Part shown: piece by piece, positions 1,168 through 20,993 of the stretch | Layout of the letters: each line of letters opens with the position of its first letter | Position numbering within the stretch: position 1 is the stretch's first letter | Origin: a virus | Strand: one strand, 5' to 3' | DNA length: 22,629 bases | IMG/VR virus record: IMGVR_UViG_3300030331_005503 | Coordinates: 1 to 22,629 of that record | Position numbers and translations under genes: made by a program | The notes under the pieces: generated by a model | Databases searched by the model: none | Seen by the model: the letters and a program-made list of their open reading frames with translations, nothing else | Told to the model about the DNA's origin: nothing

Positions 1168-1656
1168 ATGGCAGATTTATTAATGAGAATGCCGGTCCCT
1201 TATGAACCGTTAAGAAAGAATAGATGGATTCTTAGATTTCCAGACGATTTAGGTATTCAAGAATGGTGGATTTCTACTGCCAGTAGACCTAAATATACTA
1301 GTGATGAAGTATCAATACCATTTTTAAATACTGAGACTTATGTTATCGGTAGATTTAGATGGGAAACAATCTCTGTAACATTTAGAGATCCAATTGGTCC
1401 TTCTGCAACACAAGCATTGATGGAATGGGTGAGATTACACTCTGAATCAGTAACTGGTAGACAAGGTTATGCGGCAGGTTACAAAAAGAACGTAGAGTTA
1501 GAGATGTTAGATCCAACAGGTGTAGTAGTTCAAAAATGGATTTTAGAGGGAACACAACTTAATGACGCTGACTTTGGTGGGTTAGATTATAGTTCTTCTG
1601 ATTTAGCAGACATTACTTGTACATTGAGGTTCGATAGAGCAATCAACGTATTTTAA
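1168..1656 (+). CDS. Tail tube protein (T4 gp19-like)
   Basis: The 162-residue product matches the size of T4 gp19 (163 residues) and has the family look. The N-terminus (RMPVPYEPLRKNRWILRFP) is followed by a mixed beta pattern with YVIGRFRWETISVTFRDPIG, then a long helix region (QALMEWVRLHSES), a GYAAGYKK turn, and a C-terminal strand ending CTLRFDRAINVF. Tube proteins of this family stack as hexameric rings inside the sheath and form the DNA channel. The start context is AAATTATGGCA with no clear Shine-Dalgarno sequence. The gene is flanked by a putative late motif upstream and a strong terminator downstream, so it is probably transcribed as a short abundant message. This is one of the best-supported calls in the window. 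Confidence 0.9.
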   Translation: MADLLMRMPVPYEPLRKNRWILRFPDDLGIQEWWISTASRPKYTSDEVSIPFLNTETYVIGRFRWETISVTFRDPIGPSATQALMEWVRLHSESVTGRQGYAAGYKKNVELEMLDPTGVVVQKWILEGTQLNDADFGGLDYSSSDLADITCTLRFDRAINVF

Positions 1657-7908: not shown

Positions 7909-8691
7909 ATGGAAAATCAACACATACCACAAATAGATCCGACACATATACCTGCGGAATATCAAGTACCTTATGATGTAATAGACTTACCCTCACAAGG
8001 TTTACTATACCCAAATAAAAAAAGTAACGTTAAAGTTGAGTATTTAACTGCTTTTGATGAAACAGTACTTTCTTCCCCAAACATTTCTTCTAATGGTGGG
8101 ATTATGGATATTTTGATTGAGAGAAAAGTTAAAGATCTTGGATTCGATAGTTTAGATTTACTTTATAGTGATAGAGTAGCAATTTTATTATATCTTAGAA
8201 CTACCGCATTTGGTCCTGAATATACACAATTAGTTTATAATGAAGATACAAAAAAATTAGAAGAGGGTATTATTGATTTATCTAAATTAAAACAAAAAAA
8301 ATTAACTGTTAAACCAGACGAAAATAACCTTTTTGATTTTACCTTACCTCAATGCGGTAAAAATGTTAAATTTAGATTTTTAACTGGTAGAGATGAAAAA
8401 GATATGGATATATTAGATAAAAACTATATGGAAAAAAATAAAACTGACATATCTAATAGATTATTTTTTAGAATGGAAAAACAAGTTATGTCAATCGATG
8501 GTGAAACAGATAAAATTAGAATATCTAATTTATTAAAGAATTTATCTATAATGGATTCTAGAAAATTAAGAAAATATATTGGTGATATTGAGTCTGGAAT
8601 AGATTTCCAAACTGAAGCACGGATGCCGGGGGGAGCATCCGTAAGTTGCTTTCTTAGATTTAACACATCTTTTTTCTTTCCTGAACTCTAA
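7909..8691 (+). CDS. T4 gp26-like baseplate hub / assembly protein
   Basis: The 260-residue in-frame product carries the marks of the T4-type baseplate protein family (gp26-like). These are DLPSQGLLYP at residues 26-35, a following YLTAFDETVLSSPN segment and GIMDILIERKVKD, then a central region with FRFLTGRDEKDMDIL and a C-terminus ending TSFFFPEL. T4 gp26 (208 residues) takes part in assembling the central hub. The position just ahead of the tape measure region agrees with T4 order 25-26-51-27-28-29. The reading frame stops at 8689-8691, but the +1 frame continues with sequence that looks like the natural C-terminal tail (to 8845), so the full product may be about 310 residues made by frameshifting. 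A GC-rich hairpin lies 48 bases before the stop. Confidence 0.7.
   Translation: MENQHIPQIDPTHIPAEYQVPYDVIDLPSQGLLYPNKKSNVKVEYLTAFDETVLSSPNISSNGGIMDILIERKVKDLGFDSLDLLYSDRVAILLYLRTTAFGPEYTQLVYNEDTKKLEEGIIDLSKLKQKKLTVKPDENNLFDFTLPQCGKNVKFRFLTGRDEKDMDILDKNYMEKNKTDISNRLFFRMEKQVMSIDGETDKIRISNLLKNLSIMDSRKLRKYIGDIESGIDFQTEARMPGGASVSCFLRFNTSFFFPEL
8620..8641 (+). other. GC-rich stem-loop inside the gp26-like gene
   Basis: CGGATGC (8620-8626) pairs perfectly with GCATCCG (8635-8641) around an 8-base loop containing six G residues. It stands out in this very AT-rich DNA. It ends three bases before the point (8645) from which the +1 frame is open, so it may influence frameshifting, although stimulatory structures usually lie downstream of the slip site. 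Confidence 0.6.
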
Positions 8692-11454: not shown

Positions 11455-11471
11455 AAAAAATAATTTTACTA

Positions 11472-11502
11472 TTGACTTTTTGAAGTTTATTTTTTATATT
11501 TG
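11472..11502 (+). promoter_or_regulatory. Bacteroidota-type vegetative promoter
   Basis: TTG at 11472-11474 is followed by a 20-base spacer and TATATTTG at 11495-11502, an exact fit to the TAnnTTTG -7 box and the TTG -33 element of Bacteroidota primary-sigma promoters. Transcription should begin near 11507, giving a leader of about 140 bases before the ATG at 11651. Confidence 0.75.
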
Positions 11503-11581
11503 ACCAGAAATAGACCTTAAAAATTATAAATAATTATTAAAACTAGAATAAATATAATTAAAAAACTAGTAATAATCTACT

Positions 11582-11602
11582 AATTATATATAATATATAA
11601 TT
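11582..11602. repeat. AT-only inverted repeat in the leader of the 11651 gene
   Basis: AATTATATA (11582-11590) and TATATAATT (11594-11602) are perfect inverted arms around TAA. It could be a weak hairpin or a dimeric-protein site. In such AT-rich DNA it may also be chance. Confidence 0.35.
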
Positions 11603-11626
11603 TTATCTCCTGAAATTTATGCTTTA

Positions 11627-11636
11627 AATATTTATA
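11627..11636 (+). promoter_or_regulatory. Putative late-promoter motif ATATTTATW before the 11651 gene
   Basis: AATATTTATA ends 14 bases before the ATG. Together with the host-type promoter at 11472-11502, this gene appears to have two kinds of promoter. Confidence 0.45.
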
Positions 11637-11650
11637 TAGAAAGAATATTT

Positions 11651-14600
11651 ATGGCAGGAATTTTAAATCAAACATTATACACAAGTAATTTTGGAGTTTT
11701 AACAACTGAAGATTTAAGAAATGACTTGCTTAGTCGTAATTTACCTCCTCCAACTAATAGAACATTAACCGAAGGTGGATTAACTTCCAAACTAGACGAT
11801 ATAGGTAGAGTAATAAATGTACCTATAGGTGGTAGTCAAAATGAAAATACAGTCGTATCATACAATGAAGAAGGTAATATTATTACTGAAGGTGAAACAT
11901 TTAGAGATACTCAAAATGTAAACAATAACCGATATATACCTCAATCTGATGAATATAATGAATATGGTGTAATTATTCCCTCTGAACCTTATCCTGATTC
12001 GGGAAATAAAGAAAGAAGACCATACCCTACAGATTCAACCATTAATAAATTTAGTTTATTAAGTAGTGGAGATGATTCATATGTTTCATTTCCATTTGAT
12101 GTTATAGATAAAATATCTTCACTTACATTTGATAATGAAACCCCTTTAGGAATAATTGGTGCCAATATTATGGAGACAAATGTAATCGGTAAAGTTTCTC
12201 AGATTCAAAAAAAATTAACAAGTGATTTAATTAATTTTGCTATAACTTATTTTCAACCACCCGAAGAAGAACCTAGTGACTTTGAAGATAGGATGAGAGG
12301 TCAGTTGAGTAGCCAAAATGGTTTACCAAATGAAGCGGTAGGTTGGCAAGAGTATAACACTAGATTAAAAACTAATAAATTAGGTAAATCGTCAAATAAT
12401 AGTCAAAGTAACCCAATAATTACTACTGAACAAAGGAATAATACTTTAATTAGTAATACAGGAATAAACCAAACAACATTTTTATTTAATGCGTTAGGAT
12501 TAAATCTTTATGTACCTGATTATAGTGACAGAAGATTATCTTCAACATCAGACGCAGGTACTAATAGTAGATATTATATAGGGAGTGAAAGAACTACCAA
12601 TAGAGGTAGTAAAATAATGACAACATTTACCTCCGATGAATTTAATGGTGCAGATGGTATTAATTCAGCACAAGTAGGACAAACCACAGTAGATGAAAAT
12701 TATTATTGGGAATTTAACGATAATAATAATTTTAATAATAAAACCATTTTATCTGAAACACAAGACTTAGTAAATAATTTTTCTGAGGATGTTTTTATTG
12801 ATCAGACTAAAAAGTTTTTTAAAGATAGAGTTAAAGGTAGATTAATAAGTAGAGGTAGTGCAATTAGTAGTGAATCTTTTGAATCCGCAATAAAAAACGG
12901 TAAATTTTGTAGAGTATGGACACCTAAAGACCCATATAAATATCAAAACGCAATTAGAAAAAGTGGTTTATTTAGCTCTGATAGTAAAACTAAACCAGGA
13001 TTTTCAGTTACTTCGGACAATGCATCTTTAAGTGTATTACAAAGTAATGGTTTTCCAAAAACACATTCAACAGAAATAGATAGGACTACTTCCTTTAAAA
13101 AATATATGTTGTCTCTAGAAAATTTAGCGTGGTCAGATAACTTAGCTGATTTAAGTTTAGATGAAATTGGACCTGGTGATCCTTTAAGTAGGAATAAAGG
13201 TAGAATTATGTGGTTTCCTCCATATGATTTAGGTTTTGACGAAAGTATGAGTGCTAATTGGACAAAAACTGATTTTATAGGTAGAGGTGAACCTGTTTAT
13301 ACATATAATAACTCTACTAGAACAGGACAATTAAAATTTAAAGTATTAGTTGATCACCCTAAAGTTATTAATGCATATAGAGGAAGAAGAACTAATGAGA
13401 TAGAAAGGTTTTTTGCTGGATGTATTTCTCCAGAAGAATTTTTAAGTTTATTAGATAATAGCCAAGGTGTTAGTATCAACACAAAAAAAGAAATAGAAAA
13501 AAAATTAAATTTACAACAACAACAATCAACGGCATCTAATTATAGTGCTAGTGAAAAATATACACTATTATTTCAAAAAGATAGTGACTCAGGAGTATCT
13601 ATAGATAGTTTAAGTATTACTAATTTTTTGAACCAACAAAAAACAAGTGATAAAACAGTTAAAATTATTATAAATGGATATGCATCAAAAGACGAAACAA
13701 ATGCAAATACATTAGCAACTAATAGAGCAAATGATATTAAAACACAAGTTGAGAGTGTAGTAAATTCGATTAGTAACGTAAAATCAAGTACTGTAGTAAA
13801 ATCACAAGTTATTGATATAAGTGGTGATGAAAATAGTAGAAGAGTGGATATAAATATAAGTTATGATGCAATTAACGATAATACTGCACAACATAAAAAA
13901 ACTGATATGGATAGTAATTTAGTTAGTTTACCATTAGACTCTCAAATAATCGATAATTTGAGAATAGATGAAACAAGGTATTTTGATTTTATAGGTGAAG
14001 AGTATCCTGAATATTTTGAAACCATTTCAGAAAAAATTAAATATTTTCATCCAGGTTTTCATTCTACCACACCTGAAGGTTTAAATACAAGATTAACATT
14101 TCTACAACAATGTGTAAGACAAGGACCAAGTATATATGATAAATCAGATTCTAATGGTATAAAACCACAAAATTTAGCATTTGGTAGACCACCAGTTTGT
14201 ATTTTGAGAATCGGTGATTACATCAACACTAAAGTATGTATAAATAGTATTAATATTACGTATCAATCAGGAAACGCACCTCAATGGGATTTAAATCCTG
14301 AAGGTATTGGTGTACAACCTATGATGGCAGATGTAACTCTTTCTTTAGATATTATAGGTGGACAATCACTACAAGGCCCAATAAGTAGATTACAAAATGC
14401 ATTATCATTTAATTATTATGCAAATACAGAGATGTATGAAAGAAGAAGTGATAGATTAGAAGTGGACGCTTTTATAGGTGCTAGAATAGTTAACGGTAGA
14501 AATAGTTTATTTAGTGAATTATTACCGGGCGTTGCAAACATAGCTCAAAAAATATCTTTGATTGGCGACTCACCTAATAATACTTTAAAACAGGAAGTCC

Positions 14601-15115
14601 CCCTTAATCAATCTAGTGAGAATAATGATAGTTCCCAACCCCCAATTCCTGTGGATATTATAACTATCAATATTAATTGTAATAATCAAAACATTATTGT
14701 TGAAACATTAGTAAATGGTTTATTAAAACCATTAGATACCCCTTTTAATGTTACTATTACAGATAATATAACTTCTTTTGTACATAAAGATGAACCTTTT
14801 GTAGGTGAAAGTGTTACTATAAATTTAAATGATGTATCTTTCTTTAATGCGGCGTTTTCTAAAAGTAAAACAATAAAAGATAATCAAGATGAGATATCTA
14901 TATTACAAACTGAGTTTGATTCCTTATCTAATAATAGTGCATACAACATAAATAGAAAAGGTGAAATACAAAACGAAATTAGTGAATTAATTGAAGAAAT
15001 AACGGAAATACGTGAAACAATACCTAATGTTAATGTTAATGTAAAATATGAGTTAGAAGGTCAAGACTTATTCCGTAATCAAACATTTACTATTTCAAAT
15101 AATGAATTAATTTAA
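11651..15115 (+). CDS. Baseplate/tail-tube adapter (gp48/54 or CIS-tube-like) with OmpA-like insertion
   Basis: The 1154-residue product has a long polar N-terminus (1-500). Residues 518-578 contain MWFPPYDLGFDESMSANW, FIGRGEPVYTYNN and RTGQLKFKVLVDHPKV, the pattern of contractile-injection tube/baseplate proteins. The matching second half begins near 847 (PPVCILRIGDYINTKVCINS) and includes WDLNPEGIGVQPMMADVTLS and a GPISRLQNALSFNYYANT block. Between the halves, residues about 636-740 look like an OmpA C-terminal domain. It has GYASKD (676-681), then N..LATNRA with R692, then SRRVDINIS (729-737). OmpA domains bind peptidoglycan; the canonical Asp after GH/GY is absent here, as in GYAS variants, but the Arg remains. 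The C-terminal 150 residues include a coiled coil. T4 proteins gp48 and gp54 start the tail tube on the baseplate, which fits the position after the tape measure gene. Confidence 0.6.
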   Translation: MAGILNQTLYTSNFGVLTTEDLRNDLLSRNLPPPTNRTLTEGGLTSKLDDIGRVINVPIGGSQNENTVVSYNEEGNIITEGETFRDTQNVNNNRYIPQSDEYNEYGVIIPSEPYPDSGNKERRPYPTDSTINKFSLLSSGDDSYVSFPFDVIDKISSLTFDNETPLGIIGANIMETNVIGKVSQIQKKLTSDLINFAITYFQPPEEEPSDFEDRMRGQLSSQNGLPNEAVGWQEYNTRLKTNKLGKSSNNSQSNPIITTEQRNNTLISNTGINQTTFLFNALGLNLYVPDYSDRRLSSTSDAGTNSRYYIGSERTTNRGSKIMTTFTSDEFNGADGINSAQVGQTTVDENYYWEFNDNNNFNNKTILSETQDLVNNFSEDVFIDQTKKFFKDRVKGRLISRGSAISSESFESAIKNGKFCRVWTPKDPYKYQNAIRKSGLFSSDSKTKPGFSVTSDNASLSVLQSNGFPKTHSTEIDRTTSFKKYMLSLENLAWSDNLADLSLDEIGPGDPLSRNKGRIMWFPPYDLGFDESMSANWTKTDFIGRGEPVYTYNNSTRTGQLKFKVLVDHPKVINAYRGRRTNEIERFFAGCISPEEFLSLLDNSQGVSINTKKEIEKKLNLQQQQSTASNYSASEKYTLLFQKDSDSGVSIDSLSITNFLNQQKTSDKTVKIIINGYASKDETNANTLATNRANDIKTQVESVVNSISNVKSSTVVKSQVIDISGDENSRRVDINISYDAINDNTAQHKKTDMDSNLVSLPLDSQIIDNLRIDETRYFDFIGEEYPEYFETISEKIKYFHPGFHSTTPEGLNTRLTFLQQCVRQGPSIYDKSDSNGIKPQNLAFGRPPVCILRIGDYINTKVCINSINITYQSGNAPQWDLNPEGIGVQPMMADVTLSLDIIGGQSLQGPISRLQNALSFNYYANTEMYERRSDRLEVDAFIGARIVNGRNSLFSELLPGVANIAQKISLIGDSPNNTLKQEVPLNQSSENNDSSQPPIPVDIITININCNNQNIIVETLVNGLLKPLDTPFNVTITDNITSFVHKDEPFVGESVTINLNDVSFFNAAFSKSKTIKDNQDEISILQTEFDSLSNNSAYNINRKGEIQNEISELIEEITEIRETIPNVNVNVKYELEGQDLFRNQTFTISNNELI

Positions 15116-15120
15116 CTAAA

Positions 15121-15447
15121 ATGAGCACAGAATATTATAACCGATATCAAAAATTTAATTTTAATGGGAAATATAAACCATTACCATTCATTAAAATTGA
15201 ACCAAAATCTACGGATAAAACAGTATTGTATAGACAAACCCAAAGTAGAATGGATAAATTAAGTCAAGAATACTATGGTAATCCTTATCATGGTTGGTTA
15301 ATTATGTTAGCAAACCCACAATATGGTGGTGTAGAAGAATCTATACCTAACAATGAAATAATAAGAATACCTTTTCCATTTAAGGACAGTTTACAACAAT
15401 ATATTTCTGAGGTACAAAGATATCAAAAATTAAACGGTACTGGATAA
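15121..15447 (+). CDS. Baseplate wedge protein with LysM-like domain (gp53-like)
   Basis: The 108-residue product is mostly one LysM-like fold. It has a short N-terminal arm (YYNRYQKFNFNGKYKPLPFI), then RMDKLSQEYYGNPYHGWLIM (43-62), with the D-x-(L/I)-x..YYG....WLI..AN core, then IPNNEIIRIPFPF. T4 gp53 is a wedge protein with a C-terminal LysM-type domain, and short gp53-like LysM proteins are common in contractile tails, where they hold baseplate parts together rather than bind cell wall. The gene begins five bases after the preceding stop and ends 11 bases before the hub gene, so all three are probably translated from one message. Its length is shorter than T4 gp53 (196 residues), as if only the LysM part is kept. 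Confidence 0.7.
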   Translation: MSTEYYNRYQKFNFNGKYKPLPFIKIEPKSTDKTVLYRQTQSRMDKLSQEYYGNPYHGWLIMLANPQYGGVEESIPNNEIIRIPFPFKDSLQQYISEVQRYQKLNGTG

Positions 15448-18400: not shown

Positions 18401-20993
18401 AAAATGGGAATCAGTATATAAATTCATAAAAAAAGACGCAGCAACCATAGTAAGTTTACCTAAATACTTTTTATTATTTATTGGTGGCACTTTATGGAGA
18501 ACACCTGAAATTTCCCCTACAGATCCAATTGATTGGACAAATTATAGTGGAACAACTAATATACCTAATCAAGAACAATATCTTACACCATTTATCGCAC
18601 CTGCAGGTGTTTCTAGAGGTGAGATTGAATCTACTTTACTAAACTTACCTAAAAAAACTAAACAAAATTTAGTCGATTTTTTTATTAAATGGGCACAAGG
18701 TAATGGTTTTAAAAATTTAGAAAAACAAGTTCTAGATTATTCTGATATTGATTTAACTATAGAAAAAAAATATAAAAAAGGTCAAGTATTGACTCAATCT
18801 ATAAAAGAGGTAGAAAAACTAATAATTGTTGCACCAAAAGTATTTAATCCAGATCCTAATTTAGGTGTAAATTTAGCTGGTTTTGAGCAGTGGTATTATA
18901 CAGGATTTAGAGAGGCGTTTATTGGTAATACTTCTAAAAACACCACACAAAAATCTAATGATAAAACTGATGAACAAACAAAAGATATGGAAAATATCAA
19001 ACAAAGTGCATATAATAGTTTAAAAAATGTTTATGATAGGTGGGTTGCGGGTAGTACAGATACTAAACTAGCATTTAATGCATGCGGATCTGGAGGTGTA
19101 CCTTTATTTGATTATTTCCGATTTGTTGATAGAGGGTTTAATGACATTGGAGATACTGCAGTAATAAATTTAGATAGTGTTTTAACCTTAAGTGAAAATA
19201 TGACAACTAATTTGTATTTCTTTATGTCTAAATTATTAAGAGACAGTAATTTTTTATTACAAATATTACCCAACTATATAAATTATAAAGATCCTGAAGA
19301 AGTTTCTACAATGTTTAAACCAATTACTAATATTACAGATAGGAATGATAATTCCGGTCCAACTTATTTATGTATATATGCTGGTGGAACATCACAAGTA
19401 TTAAATATTGAGGAACAAAATAGGTATACATTTAAAAACGATGGGTTTAATTTAGATTTTCCACCTAGTGATATATCAAGTAAAAATAATGATACTGATT
19501 TTAATTTAGTTGGTTTTAGAGTTTCCTTCGGTACTGAAAATCAAACAGTATTTAAAAGTGTATCTTTAAATCAACAAGAACATAAAGATACTAGTGAATA
19601 TCATAAAGCGTTAACTGATTTAATTGATAAGAGAGGAGGTACAAGTCGAACATTTCAAGGTACAGATTTATATAAGATGTTTAGATCTCGTTCATATACG
19701 TGTAATATAGAAGCATTAGGGTGTATGAACATACAACCAATGATGTACTTCCAATTAGATAATGTTCCATTTTTTGATGGTGCCTATATGATACTTAATG
19801 TTACTCATAATATAACCCCTAACCATATGACTACTTCTTTTACTGGTGTAAGACAAAGTAAATATATAACACCTGTTGTTGATAAATTAACAACTTTTTT
19901 AAATATTGGATTGGACGATGATTTAGATACCGAACCGGTATTTGAGAGTAGTTCTGTGTTAAACACAGTAGATTATAATACTGGAATCCCACAAGATAAG
20001 GGTCCTAACAATCAGTTTAATTTCGATTCATTAACTCAAAGTAGTTTAATTAATATAGGAGTTAAACCTAAATTTGCTACTGCAGATTTAGTTACTAACC
20101 TAAAAACTGAGTTGAAAAATGGTGGAATAACTAGTAATTCACAAGTTACTATGTTTTTAGCAAATGCATTAACTAAATCAGATAATTTTTCTCAAACTGT
20201 AGATACTTGGAATGATCCTACAGATAAAAGTGGTAAAGCTAAATATTGTGAATATGGTAACCCTTTTGGTAATGGTAGTTATGCATCTGACGAAAGTGTT
20301 AATATTGCAGCTGCTTACCTAACTAGACCAAGAGGATATATTCCAATAATAGGGGTTGATCAATACCAAAGATTTTCTAAAGATAAATCCATACCTATGA
20401 CTCAATTAACGGGAAACACTATAACGACTAAAATAGCATGTCAAATGTCTGTGTGGAGATGGAATAATTATCCTTATAGAAAGAGCTACCAAAATGGGAA
20501 AACTATGAATGAATTATATAGAAAAATTAAAACTATTGAAGCAGAAATAGAGGAATTCTTAAAACTTTCACCAGCAGAACAATTATTAGAATCAGATCCC
20601 GCTTCACCTATCGATCCTTTAACTCAACTACGATTGAATGAGAAACAATTAAATGAACAAATATTAAAATTAGGTCAACAAGAAGATCCTATGCTTAAAT
20701 CTGAAAAAAATTATCCACCTGGTGGTTATGCTAATGGGGGTAATTCGAAGAACTTTAACCAAACAGTGGAGTTATTAAATTTTGCAGACGGTAAAGATGT
20801 TCAACTATCGTTTGAAAATTTTACTAAAGTATTAAACGAGTACCCTACTAAAAATGGTGAAAGCAATTTATTAGGTACTACTGCAGGAAAGGGAGAAAAA
20901 TTCAAAAAGAAAAGAAATATTAATATATATACTACTAAAGAAAAAGAAAATATTTCTGACCTTATTACATCAGTAGGTACAGTAGCACCATAA
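15459..20993 (+). CDS. Giant baseplate hub protein (gp27/gp5-like role) with degenerate GH19-like domain
   Basis: The 1844-residue product is the largest in the window. The N-terminus (about 80-215) has the blocks GISSINIKYNTSLVPQVDID and SPYSIFFKMPYPIFTLTVKG, typical of large phage hub or baseplate proteins. Residues 215-1400 have no family I recognise, with a coiled coil near 530-560. Residues 1411-1468 (SYTCNIEALGCMNIQPMMYF, then NVTHNITPNHMTTSFTGVRQ) match the end of a gp27/gpD-like hub domain. Residues 1560-1690 resemble a GH19 lysozyme. They have FLANALTKSDNF where such enzymes have the HES.F motif, then GNGSYASDES, RPRGYIPIIGVDQY (from 1623) and VWRWNN. The catalytic Glu position is K1573, so the domain is probably inactive. 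A coiled coil (1683-1744) and a Lys-rich tail end the protein. T4 splits hub (gp27) and lysozyme (gp5); here they may be fused. Confidence 0.6.
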   Translation: MGEEENKDVKQVGAGLMLIDPNPSGRNVLPAEDMFIYVSLTAEERSRGVITVGENENEFEESRFGVIEFVATEIKYNQAGEPMKDIMGDVKSYATTNYTNIGGIQNSFGSGMLEGFGISSINIKYNTSLVPQVDIDFIDVRGSGLFDVIEQDNRKSPYSIFFKMPYPIFTLTVKGYFGKPVEYCLNLVTWTSKFDPTSGNFNISANFVGFQQAFLADLTIGDIIGVVGTDRGLNNLNKLPLTVGSETILNQTPKLDKFVKDISKLQIDLEALKIDSDFYKKLRVLNTQEKKLEDIRGFIGFPIGKEYSDTTTENTPYLKKINDPKQIEGSSIRSENLKKLKEYISIRDLLFFKTTNIQSVNTYMTDLFNKINDYVKFYQENKNQINNSDDYIASKAPVAGGYQFNQQYWKFIANLNGQDINYDAFKLIVSDTSGGNDGYTLTLLQFIDLLRTEDSILKSNNPEQYKSCNQNFDVSKVDISFFSKTDQKDPIDSSKTISGNKNSEFTDTTVGFVMDFRAIRMLVNDMIISIKEEKKKIEEKVVEELNNELSKQLGYKPTIGTVFQILCNNAQAFLQTIYEVSKSAEEKNRDRQKALSKASVTSDLQLKEEFDFKSQTIYAFPSLYVKEKGGFVEKYIGAEGIFPPGDKDSINAFPEIPFIDEMIKKLVIQESTLKRITSQVVKAKKSKGGSDTDNWIPINPIDYETNPFFLLNSAQSETAEGKDILYKKFINILVERFLILKYYSFPGDVTTPYIYGTWDGILAKISFIDDTIKRTLQTFLKEDEFQDKRTQLFKEAINEIPFKNVKDDDYDFLIVGSSNKGRGILGNNLKLVDEQKDNQYQIIFVDNPVTKSSKKADFLEWNGTNGNLTHNLCYKVWPTPIENRLTSKFTNPSINFYINNDNITLIDGGVTPGLNSGTNTIPKTNYINLYNGLPGNIDTLPSEGIPQAILQVERFLTDSQFYDDNSTLSKALLLLATFPFQKWESVYKFIKKDAATIVSLPKYFLLFIGGTLWRTPEISPTDPIDWTNYSGTTNIPNQEQYLTPFIAPAGVSRGEIESTLLNLPKKTKQNLVDFFIKWAQGNGFKNLEKQVLDYSDIDLTIEKKYKKGQVLTQSIKEVEKLIIVAPKVFNPDPNLGVNLAGFEQWYYTGFREAFIGNTSKNTTQKSNDKTDEQTKDMENIKQSAYNSLKNVYDRWVAGSTDTKLAFNACGSGGVPLFDYFRFVDRGFNDIGDTAVINLDSVLTLSENMTTNLYFFMSKLLRDSNFLLQILPNYINYKDPEEVSTMFKPITNITDRNDNSGPTYLCIYAGGTSQVLNIEEQNRYTFKNDGFNLDFPPSDISSKNNDTDFNLVGFRVSFGTENQTVFKSVSLNQQEHKDTSEYHKALTDLIDKRGGTSRTFQGTDLYKMFRSRSYTCNIEALGCMNIQPMMYFQLDNVPFFDGAYMILNVTHNITPNHMTTSFTGVRQSKYITPVVDKLTTFLNIGLDDDLDTEPVFESSSVLNTVDYNTGIPQDKGPNNQFNFDSLTQSSLINIGVKPKFATADLVTNLKTELKNGGITSNSQVTMFLANALTKSDNFSQTVDTWNDPTDKSGKAKYCEYGNPFGNGSYASDESVNIAAAYLTRPRGYIPIIGVDQYQRFSKDKSIPMTQLTGNTITTKIACQMSVWRWNNYPYRKSYQNGKTMNELYRKIKTIEAEIEEFLKLSPAEQLLESDPASPIDPLTQLRLNEKQLNEQILKLGQQEDPMLKSEKNYPPGGYANGGNSKNFNQTVELLNFADGKDVQLSFENFTKVLNEYPTKNGESNLLGTTAGKGEKFKKKRNINIYTTKEKENISDLITSVGTVAP

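Follow-up and report, generated by a model that had tools for sequence, protein, structure and literature searches.

We have identified an OmpA_C-like domain (PF00691 superfamily) that is inserted into the conserved core of a protein whose gene lies in the baseplate cluster of a T4-like phage family. Bacteria hold onto their own cell wall with domains of this type. The phage copies lack the Asp of the canonical ligand pocket, and the remaining pocket residues are mostly kept. The protein was found in the window, that is, the whole stretch of DNA analysed, a 22.6-kb fragment from an IMG/VR virus record. The first-pass annotation of the window had proposed that a baseplate-region protein contains an OmpA-type domain, and this is supported by fold, homology and gene context. 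Coordinates of the relevant features are collected in Table 1.

Table 1 Features of the 22.6-kb window and of the protein with the OmpA-like domain (residue numbers refer to that protein)
Feature	Residues	Position	Strand	Basis
gp19-like tail tube gene (context)		1168..1656	+	phrog_4542, 4.5e-24
Baseplate-hub-like gene (context)		7909..8691	+	phrog_150, 6.8e-5
Baseplate-region protein with OmpA-like domain (main ORF)	1154 aa	11651..15115	+	Full-length homologues 83-45% identical, same start Met
N-terminal core half (GRIMWFPPYD...FIGRGEPVYTYNN.TR.G.L.FK)	~470-574	13058..13372	+	Invariant columns in alignment A2; hhalign to un-inserted relatives
Insertion: helical flanks and OmpA-like domain	~575-796	13373..14038	+	hhalign bridge to un-inserted relatives
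OmpA_C-like domain	~633-740	13547..13870	+	Pfam, PDB profile search, AF2 model, Foldseek, VIA
Putative pocket Phe by position (PorE Phe541)	F641	13571..13573	+	Inferred equivalence
Ser at DAP-binding Asp position (OmpA Asp271, PorE Asp576)	S679	13685..13687	+	Alignment
Pocket Leu (TagL Leu497 position)	L688	13712..13714	+	Alignment
Arg at DAP-carboxylate Arg position (OmpA Arg286, PorE Arg591, TagL Arg501)	R692	13724..13726	+	Alignment
C-terminal core half (TPEGLNTRLTFLQQC ... NLAFGRPPVCILRIGDY ... DLNPEGIGVQP)	~797-935	14039..14455	+	Invariant columns in alignment A2; hhalign
C-terminal Ig/FN3-like sandwich with long coiled-coil excursion	~1003-1150	14657..15100	+	pLDDT ~75-95
Small gp53-like baseplate protein, directly 3' of main ORF		15121..15447	+	phrog_7145 baseplate wedge, 9.3e-6; PF11246, 0.007

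The identity of the domain is certain because the evidence of the family adds to that of a single, sub-threshold sequence. The window sequence alone scored 15.3 bits against PF00691 (E 4.2e-4), below the cut-off of 27.2, and a search of the whole 1154-aa protein against Pfam gave no match. Alignment A1 comprises 49 homologous segments of the domain with a mean column identity of 18%, and 22 of these segments matched Pfam OmpA (best 6.5e-10). When the segment profile was compared with PDB chains, Pal (1.6e-8) and OprF (2.9e-7) were recovered together with YiaD, OmpA, MotB and TagL, and hardly any unrelated chains appeared at E < 1e-3. An AF2 model of the domain has the order beta-alpha-beta-alpha-beta-beta with a core pLDDT of ~80-89. 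It matched OprF-C in Foldseek (1.3e-5) and A. baumannii OmpA-C (3td3) in VIA with a Z of 10.4 and an rmsd of 3.1 over 106 residues; region 628-740 of the full-length model gave a VIA Z of 10.3. Residues ~633-740 are an OmpA_C-like domain, and the OmpA C-terminal signature that had been noticed at ~636-740 is thereby confirmed by the profile match to Pal, the PF00691 matches and the comparison of the predicted structure with OmpA.

The boundaries of the insertion were derived from relatives that do not carry it. The family alignment shows strong conservation on either side (~395-590 and ~774-940) of a middle stretch that varies in length from ~105 to >500 aa. A whole-family profile detected relatives in Flavobacterium phage immuto (E 6.7e-5), LR756508 (0.004) and Microcystis phage Mel-JY01 (0.01), in which '...GR.d..y.Y.g..R.i.f.f' strands run straight into a '...kLnyLas' helix. 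Using hhalign, the unedited core aligned to these un-inserted relatives over its first half only (probability 95%, E 2e-8). With the insert columns omitted, both core halves aligned (97%, E 6.5e-11), establishing that the hypothetical proteins of immuto and Mel-JY01 are homologous in the core and differ in having neither the insertion nor an OmpA domain. Since the un-inserted relatives align over both halves, residues ~575-796 (~220 residues) constitute an insertion, as had been suggested for the domain from the sequence of the window. Among 104 unique family members, 16 have only 119-185 aa at the insertion site with no OmpA similarity, and all except one of these fall in a single group (15/16). 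On the midpoint-rooted tree, the insertion is most simply explained as a gain in this family, followed by loss of the OmpA part at two places. In three relatives (L073, L077 and L079), the insert is very large (401-949 aa by alignment anchors), keeps an OmpA-like motif with its Arg and contains extra segments.

The nature of the core itself is a separate question. It had been read as two halves of a CIS-tube/gp48-54-like fold, and our comparisons gave this assignment no support: hhalign of the core against T4 gp48, T4 gp54 and Pfam CIS_tube (PF19266) returned probabilities below 1% throughout, and the un-inserted relatives displayed only a weak collinear trend with CIS_tube. Searches of PHROGs, Pfam and NCBIfam with the core and the un-inserted relatives, and a PDB profile search with the latter, gave no match. 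In the full-length model, the core pLDDT is mostly 40-80. In Foldseek and VIA searches with that model, most matches were to the OmpA domain and the C-terminal sandwich; no tube protein was among them, the core being too weakly modelled to judge. The C-terminal sandwich gave a VIA Z of 10.1 to the Bacteroides DUF3244 protein 3sd2.

The protein is widespread in viromes. Two scans of IMG/VR yielded at least 597 and at least 594 confirmed stretches with relatives, and tblastn against the 50,697 catalogued phage records of INPHARED gave no match. GTDB genomes contributed five loci, including contigs of rumen Bacteroidales/Paludibacteraceae MAGs and a Prochlorococcus single-cell contig. The latter (L081; QCKH01000012.1) is 51 kb in length and encodes a protein with 76% identity, which hints that the window's clade infects Prochlorococcus. 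Long family contigs encode a gp23-type capsid protein (PF07068; L002 at 7e-62, also L024 and L147), and the nearest catalogued phages by capsid are immuto and Mel-JY01. The family thus belongs to the T4-like (gp23-bearing) phages, and the window itself is a fragment. When other phage tails were searched for the domain, most matches were bacterial outer-membrane proteins in records resembling bacterial DNA; Cellulophaga phage phi14:2 contributed a stand-alone protein.

In OmpA, Pal, MotB, PorE and TagL, the ligand pocket accommodates the diaminopimelate (DAP) of the stem peptide of peptidoglycan. PorE holds DAP by the side chains of Arg591, Asn584 and Asp576, by main-chain amides and by Phe541 (PMC7192894). 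In TagL, cell-wall binding is abolished by mutation of Asn494, Leu497 or Arg501 (PMC8253398), and the DAP-binding pair of A. baumannii OmpA is Asp271/Arg286 (PMC12108004), with the Asp at the amine and the Arg at the carboxylate. Set against the PorE and TagL contacts, the phage domain usually retains three out of four named pocket residues. In 86 aligned phage copies, which share ancestry and so do not represent independent events, the Asp position is never Asp and is occupied by Ser in 73, Gly in 8 and Thr in 3. The pocket Arg is kept in 84 of these copies and the Leu in 77, and an Asn lies seven residues before the Arg in 65. The full Ser-Asn-Leu-Arg pattern occurs in 63/86, mostly with the loop length of E. 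coli OmpA and Pal, which have both the Asp and the Arg in the same alignment. The earlier observation that the canonical ligand Asp is missing and R692 is kept therefore extends to the whole family. When 204 columns were ranked by conservation, R692 came first, followed by R730, with F641 third and L688 seventh. At the Asn position the window has Ala, with Asn on either side; the loop of its own clade is two residues shorter, and its Asn is off register, and this clade is the more derived.

Substitution of the Asp by Ser also occurs in cellular proteins. Of the 39 cellular OmpA domains that were aligned, nearly all of them from Bacteroidia, 24 carry Asp and 14 Ser, and every one carries the Arg; these are the best-scoring loci rather than a random sample, and the 14 Ser rows include the window. 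Ser variant motifs in the cellular Bacteroidia domains include GYASPEG and GYCSPLAS. Proteins with these motifs share with the phage copies the Ser for Asp and the retained Asn, Leu and Arg, and differ in being cellular. Compared with OmpA_C, Pal, MotB, PorE and TagL (PF00691), the phage domain has the same fold, strand and helix order and RRV strand motif, together with the pocket Phe, Leu and Arg, usually the Asn and, in most copies, the loop length. It differs in that every phage copy is without the pocket Asp, and in that it is nested in a structural protein, whereas the others are periplasmic or membrane proteins. The conservation of the pocket fits a retained ligand function.

We consider the prospect to be nearly even that the domain is an accessory module on the baseplate or tube base that would contact the cell wall through its altered pocket. 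The insertion would display the domain on the rim of the ring that initiates or supports the tail tube. Contraction would carry this part of the baseplate towards the periplasm, where the domain could touch the cell wall, specifically the stem peptide, by an altered contact. Such a contact may steady or position the tube base while the wall is locally opened. The domain is regarded as accessory because one marine clade does without it, and its dispensability and the tolerance of insert size suit an accessory contact. The pocket residues are the most constrained part of the domain although its mean column identity is low, which argues for wall contact, as do the Ser variant shared with cellular Bacteroidia domains and the baseplate gene context; the absence of the Asp from every copy, the shorter loop of the window's clade, with its displaced Asn, and the structural role of LysM domains in other baseplates argue against it. 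The conserved pocket Arg and Asn could be structural instead.

A somewhat less probable, though still serious, explanation is that a wall-binding fold was co-opted as a structural clamp that joins the tube initiator or hub to the wedges with no peptidoglycan contact, in which case a peptide from a partner protein may occupy the former ligand pocket. LysM domains, another peptidoglycan-binding fold, offer a precedent from tube initiators within the baseplate (PMC8894135, PMC11915804, PMC10966104): that of Alg7 extends to the wedges (PMC8894135), and those of Mu gp43 (PMC11915804), A-1(L) gp16 and T4 gp53 (PMC10966104) are structural. Milano gp25 is a further such case. Loss of the ligand Asp in every phage copy and the position of the main gene directly before a gp53-like gene would also agree with a clamp. 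However, conservation within the domain is highest at the pocket residues, the adjacent gene already supplies a gp53-like protein, and loss of the domain in 16/104 members, with inserts of 119 to >500 aa, would be odd for an obligatory clamp. We regard as improbable the idea that the domain binds another envelope part or a different glycan or peptide (an outer-membrane ligand, for instance, or a stem peptide in modified form) through a pocket that the Ser has reshaped. The Asp-to-Ser change is fixed, the remaining pocket is kept across deep divergence, and the Ser signature recurs in a cellular subfamily, but the present analysis identified no such ligand. To our knowledge, no ligand is known for the Ser subfamily of OmpA domains. 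Finally, a non-functional passenger domain or a chance resemblance is very hard to credit and already contradicted, for although the window sequence alone falls below the PF00691 threshold, the family profile and model match the OmpA family almost exclusively and the pocket is under strong constraint.

The wall-contact reading had originally included the proposal that the domain replaces a separate cell-wall-binding part, and the neighboring genes do not bear this out. The gp53-like gene adjoins the main ORF in 132 of 153 loci; its product in the window matches T4 gp53 47-82 weakly and has a LysM-like motif by eye. T4 gp53 has a LysM domain (PMC10966104). A substitution of the OmpA-like domain for gp53/LysM was rejected given the gp53-like gene next door. 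After this gene comes a 1844-aa ORF, the counterpart of which was found in 149 related loci; it contains an endolysin-like stretch (window 19971-20465; phrog_181, 2.7e-5). In the OmpA-less group, a ~370-aa ORF (L039 7160-8251, L048 7219-8340 and counterparts) intervenes between the core gene and the gp53-like gene. This ORF was considered as a substitute for the OmpA domain and rejected, since it has no OmpA similarity and occurs in fused form in the OmpA-bearing L136 and L140. In these two loci, a profile of the ~370-aa ORF finds its match within the ~1570-aa main ORF, so the arrangement reflects gene split or fusion. On the 5' side of the main ORF, an AT-rich gap of 196 bases (window 11455-11650) precedes a run of tightly spaced genes and is a possible promoter region.

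Searches of open-licence papers turned up no account of a phage baseplate with an OmpA domain. What is already known comprises LysM wall-binding folds in baseplates and OmpA_C anchors on the firing side (TagL, TssL). The LysM baseplate proteins (Alg7, Mu gp43, Milano gp25, A-1(L) gp16 and T4 gp53) likewise place a wall-binding fold in a baseplate protein. Theirs is LysM, present as a terminal or helical-domain module, whereas here an OmpA_C domain is nested in a core. The type VI secretion anchors share the use of an OmpA_C domain by a contractile machine (PMC8253398), with a fold match to 5m38 at Z 9.1. TagL and TssL, in contrast, anchor the membrane complex of the firing cell, and the domain described here is part of a phage tail.

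Taken further, these data raise the possibility, which we hold tentatively and well short of even confidence, that a deep T4-like lineage has equipped the ring at its tail-tube base with a module for gripping the wall, the stem-peptide pocket of which is re-tuned to Ser-Asn-Leu-Arg. The penetrating tube would then dock on peptidoglycan through a contact of the OmpA type, a form of cell-wall recognition that has been described for no phage tail. In solved contractile baseplates, LysM folds act as structural parts. An independent capture of OmpA_C, with the pocket as its most constrained part, would point to a reason for the recruitment of wall-binding folds to the baseplate. Abundant in public viromes and unmatched among catalogued phages, the family is a marker for a large unsampled T4-like group.
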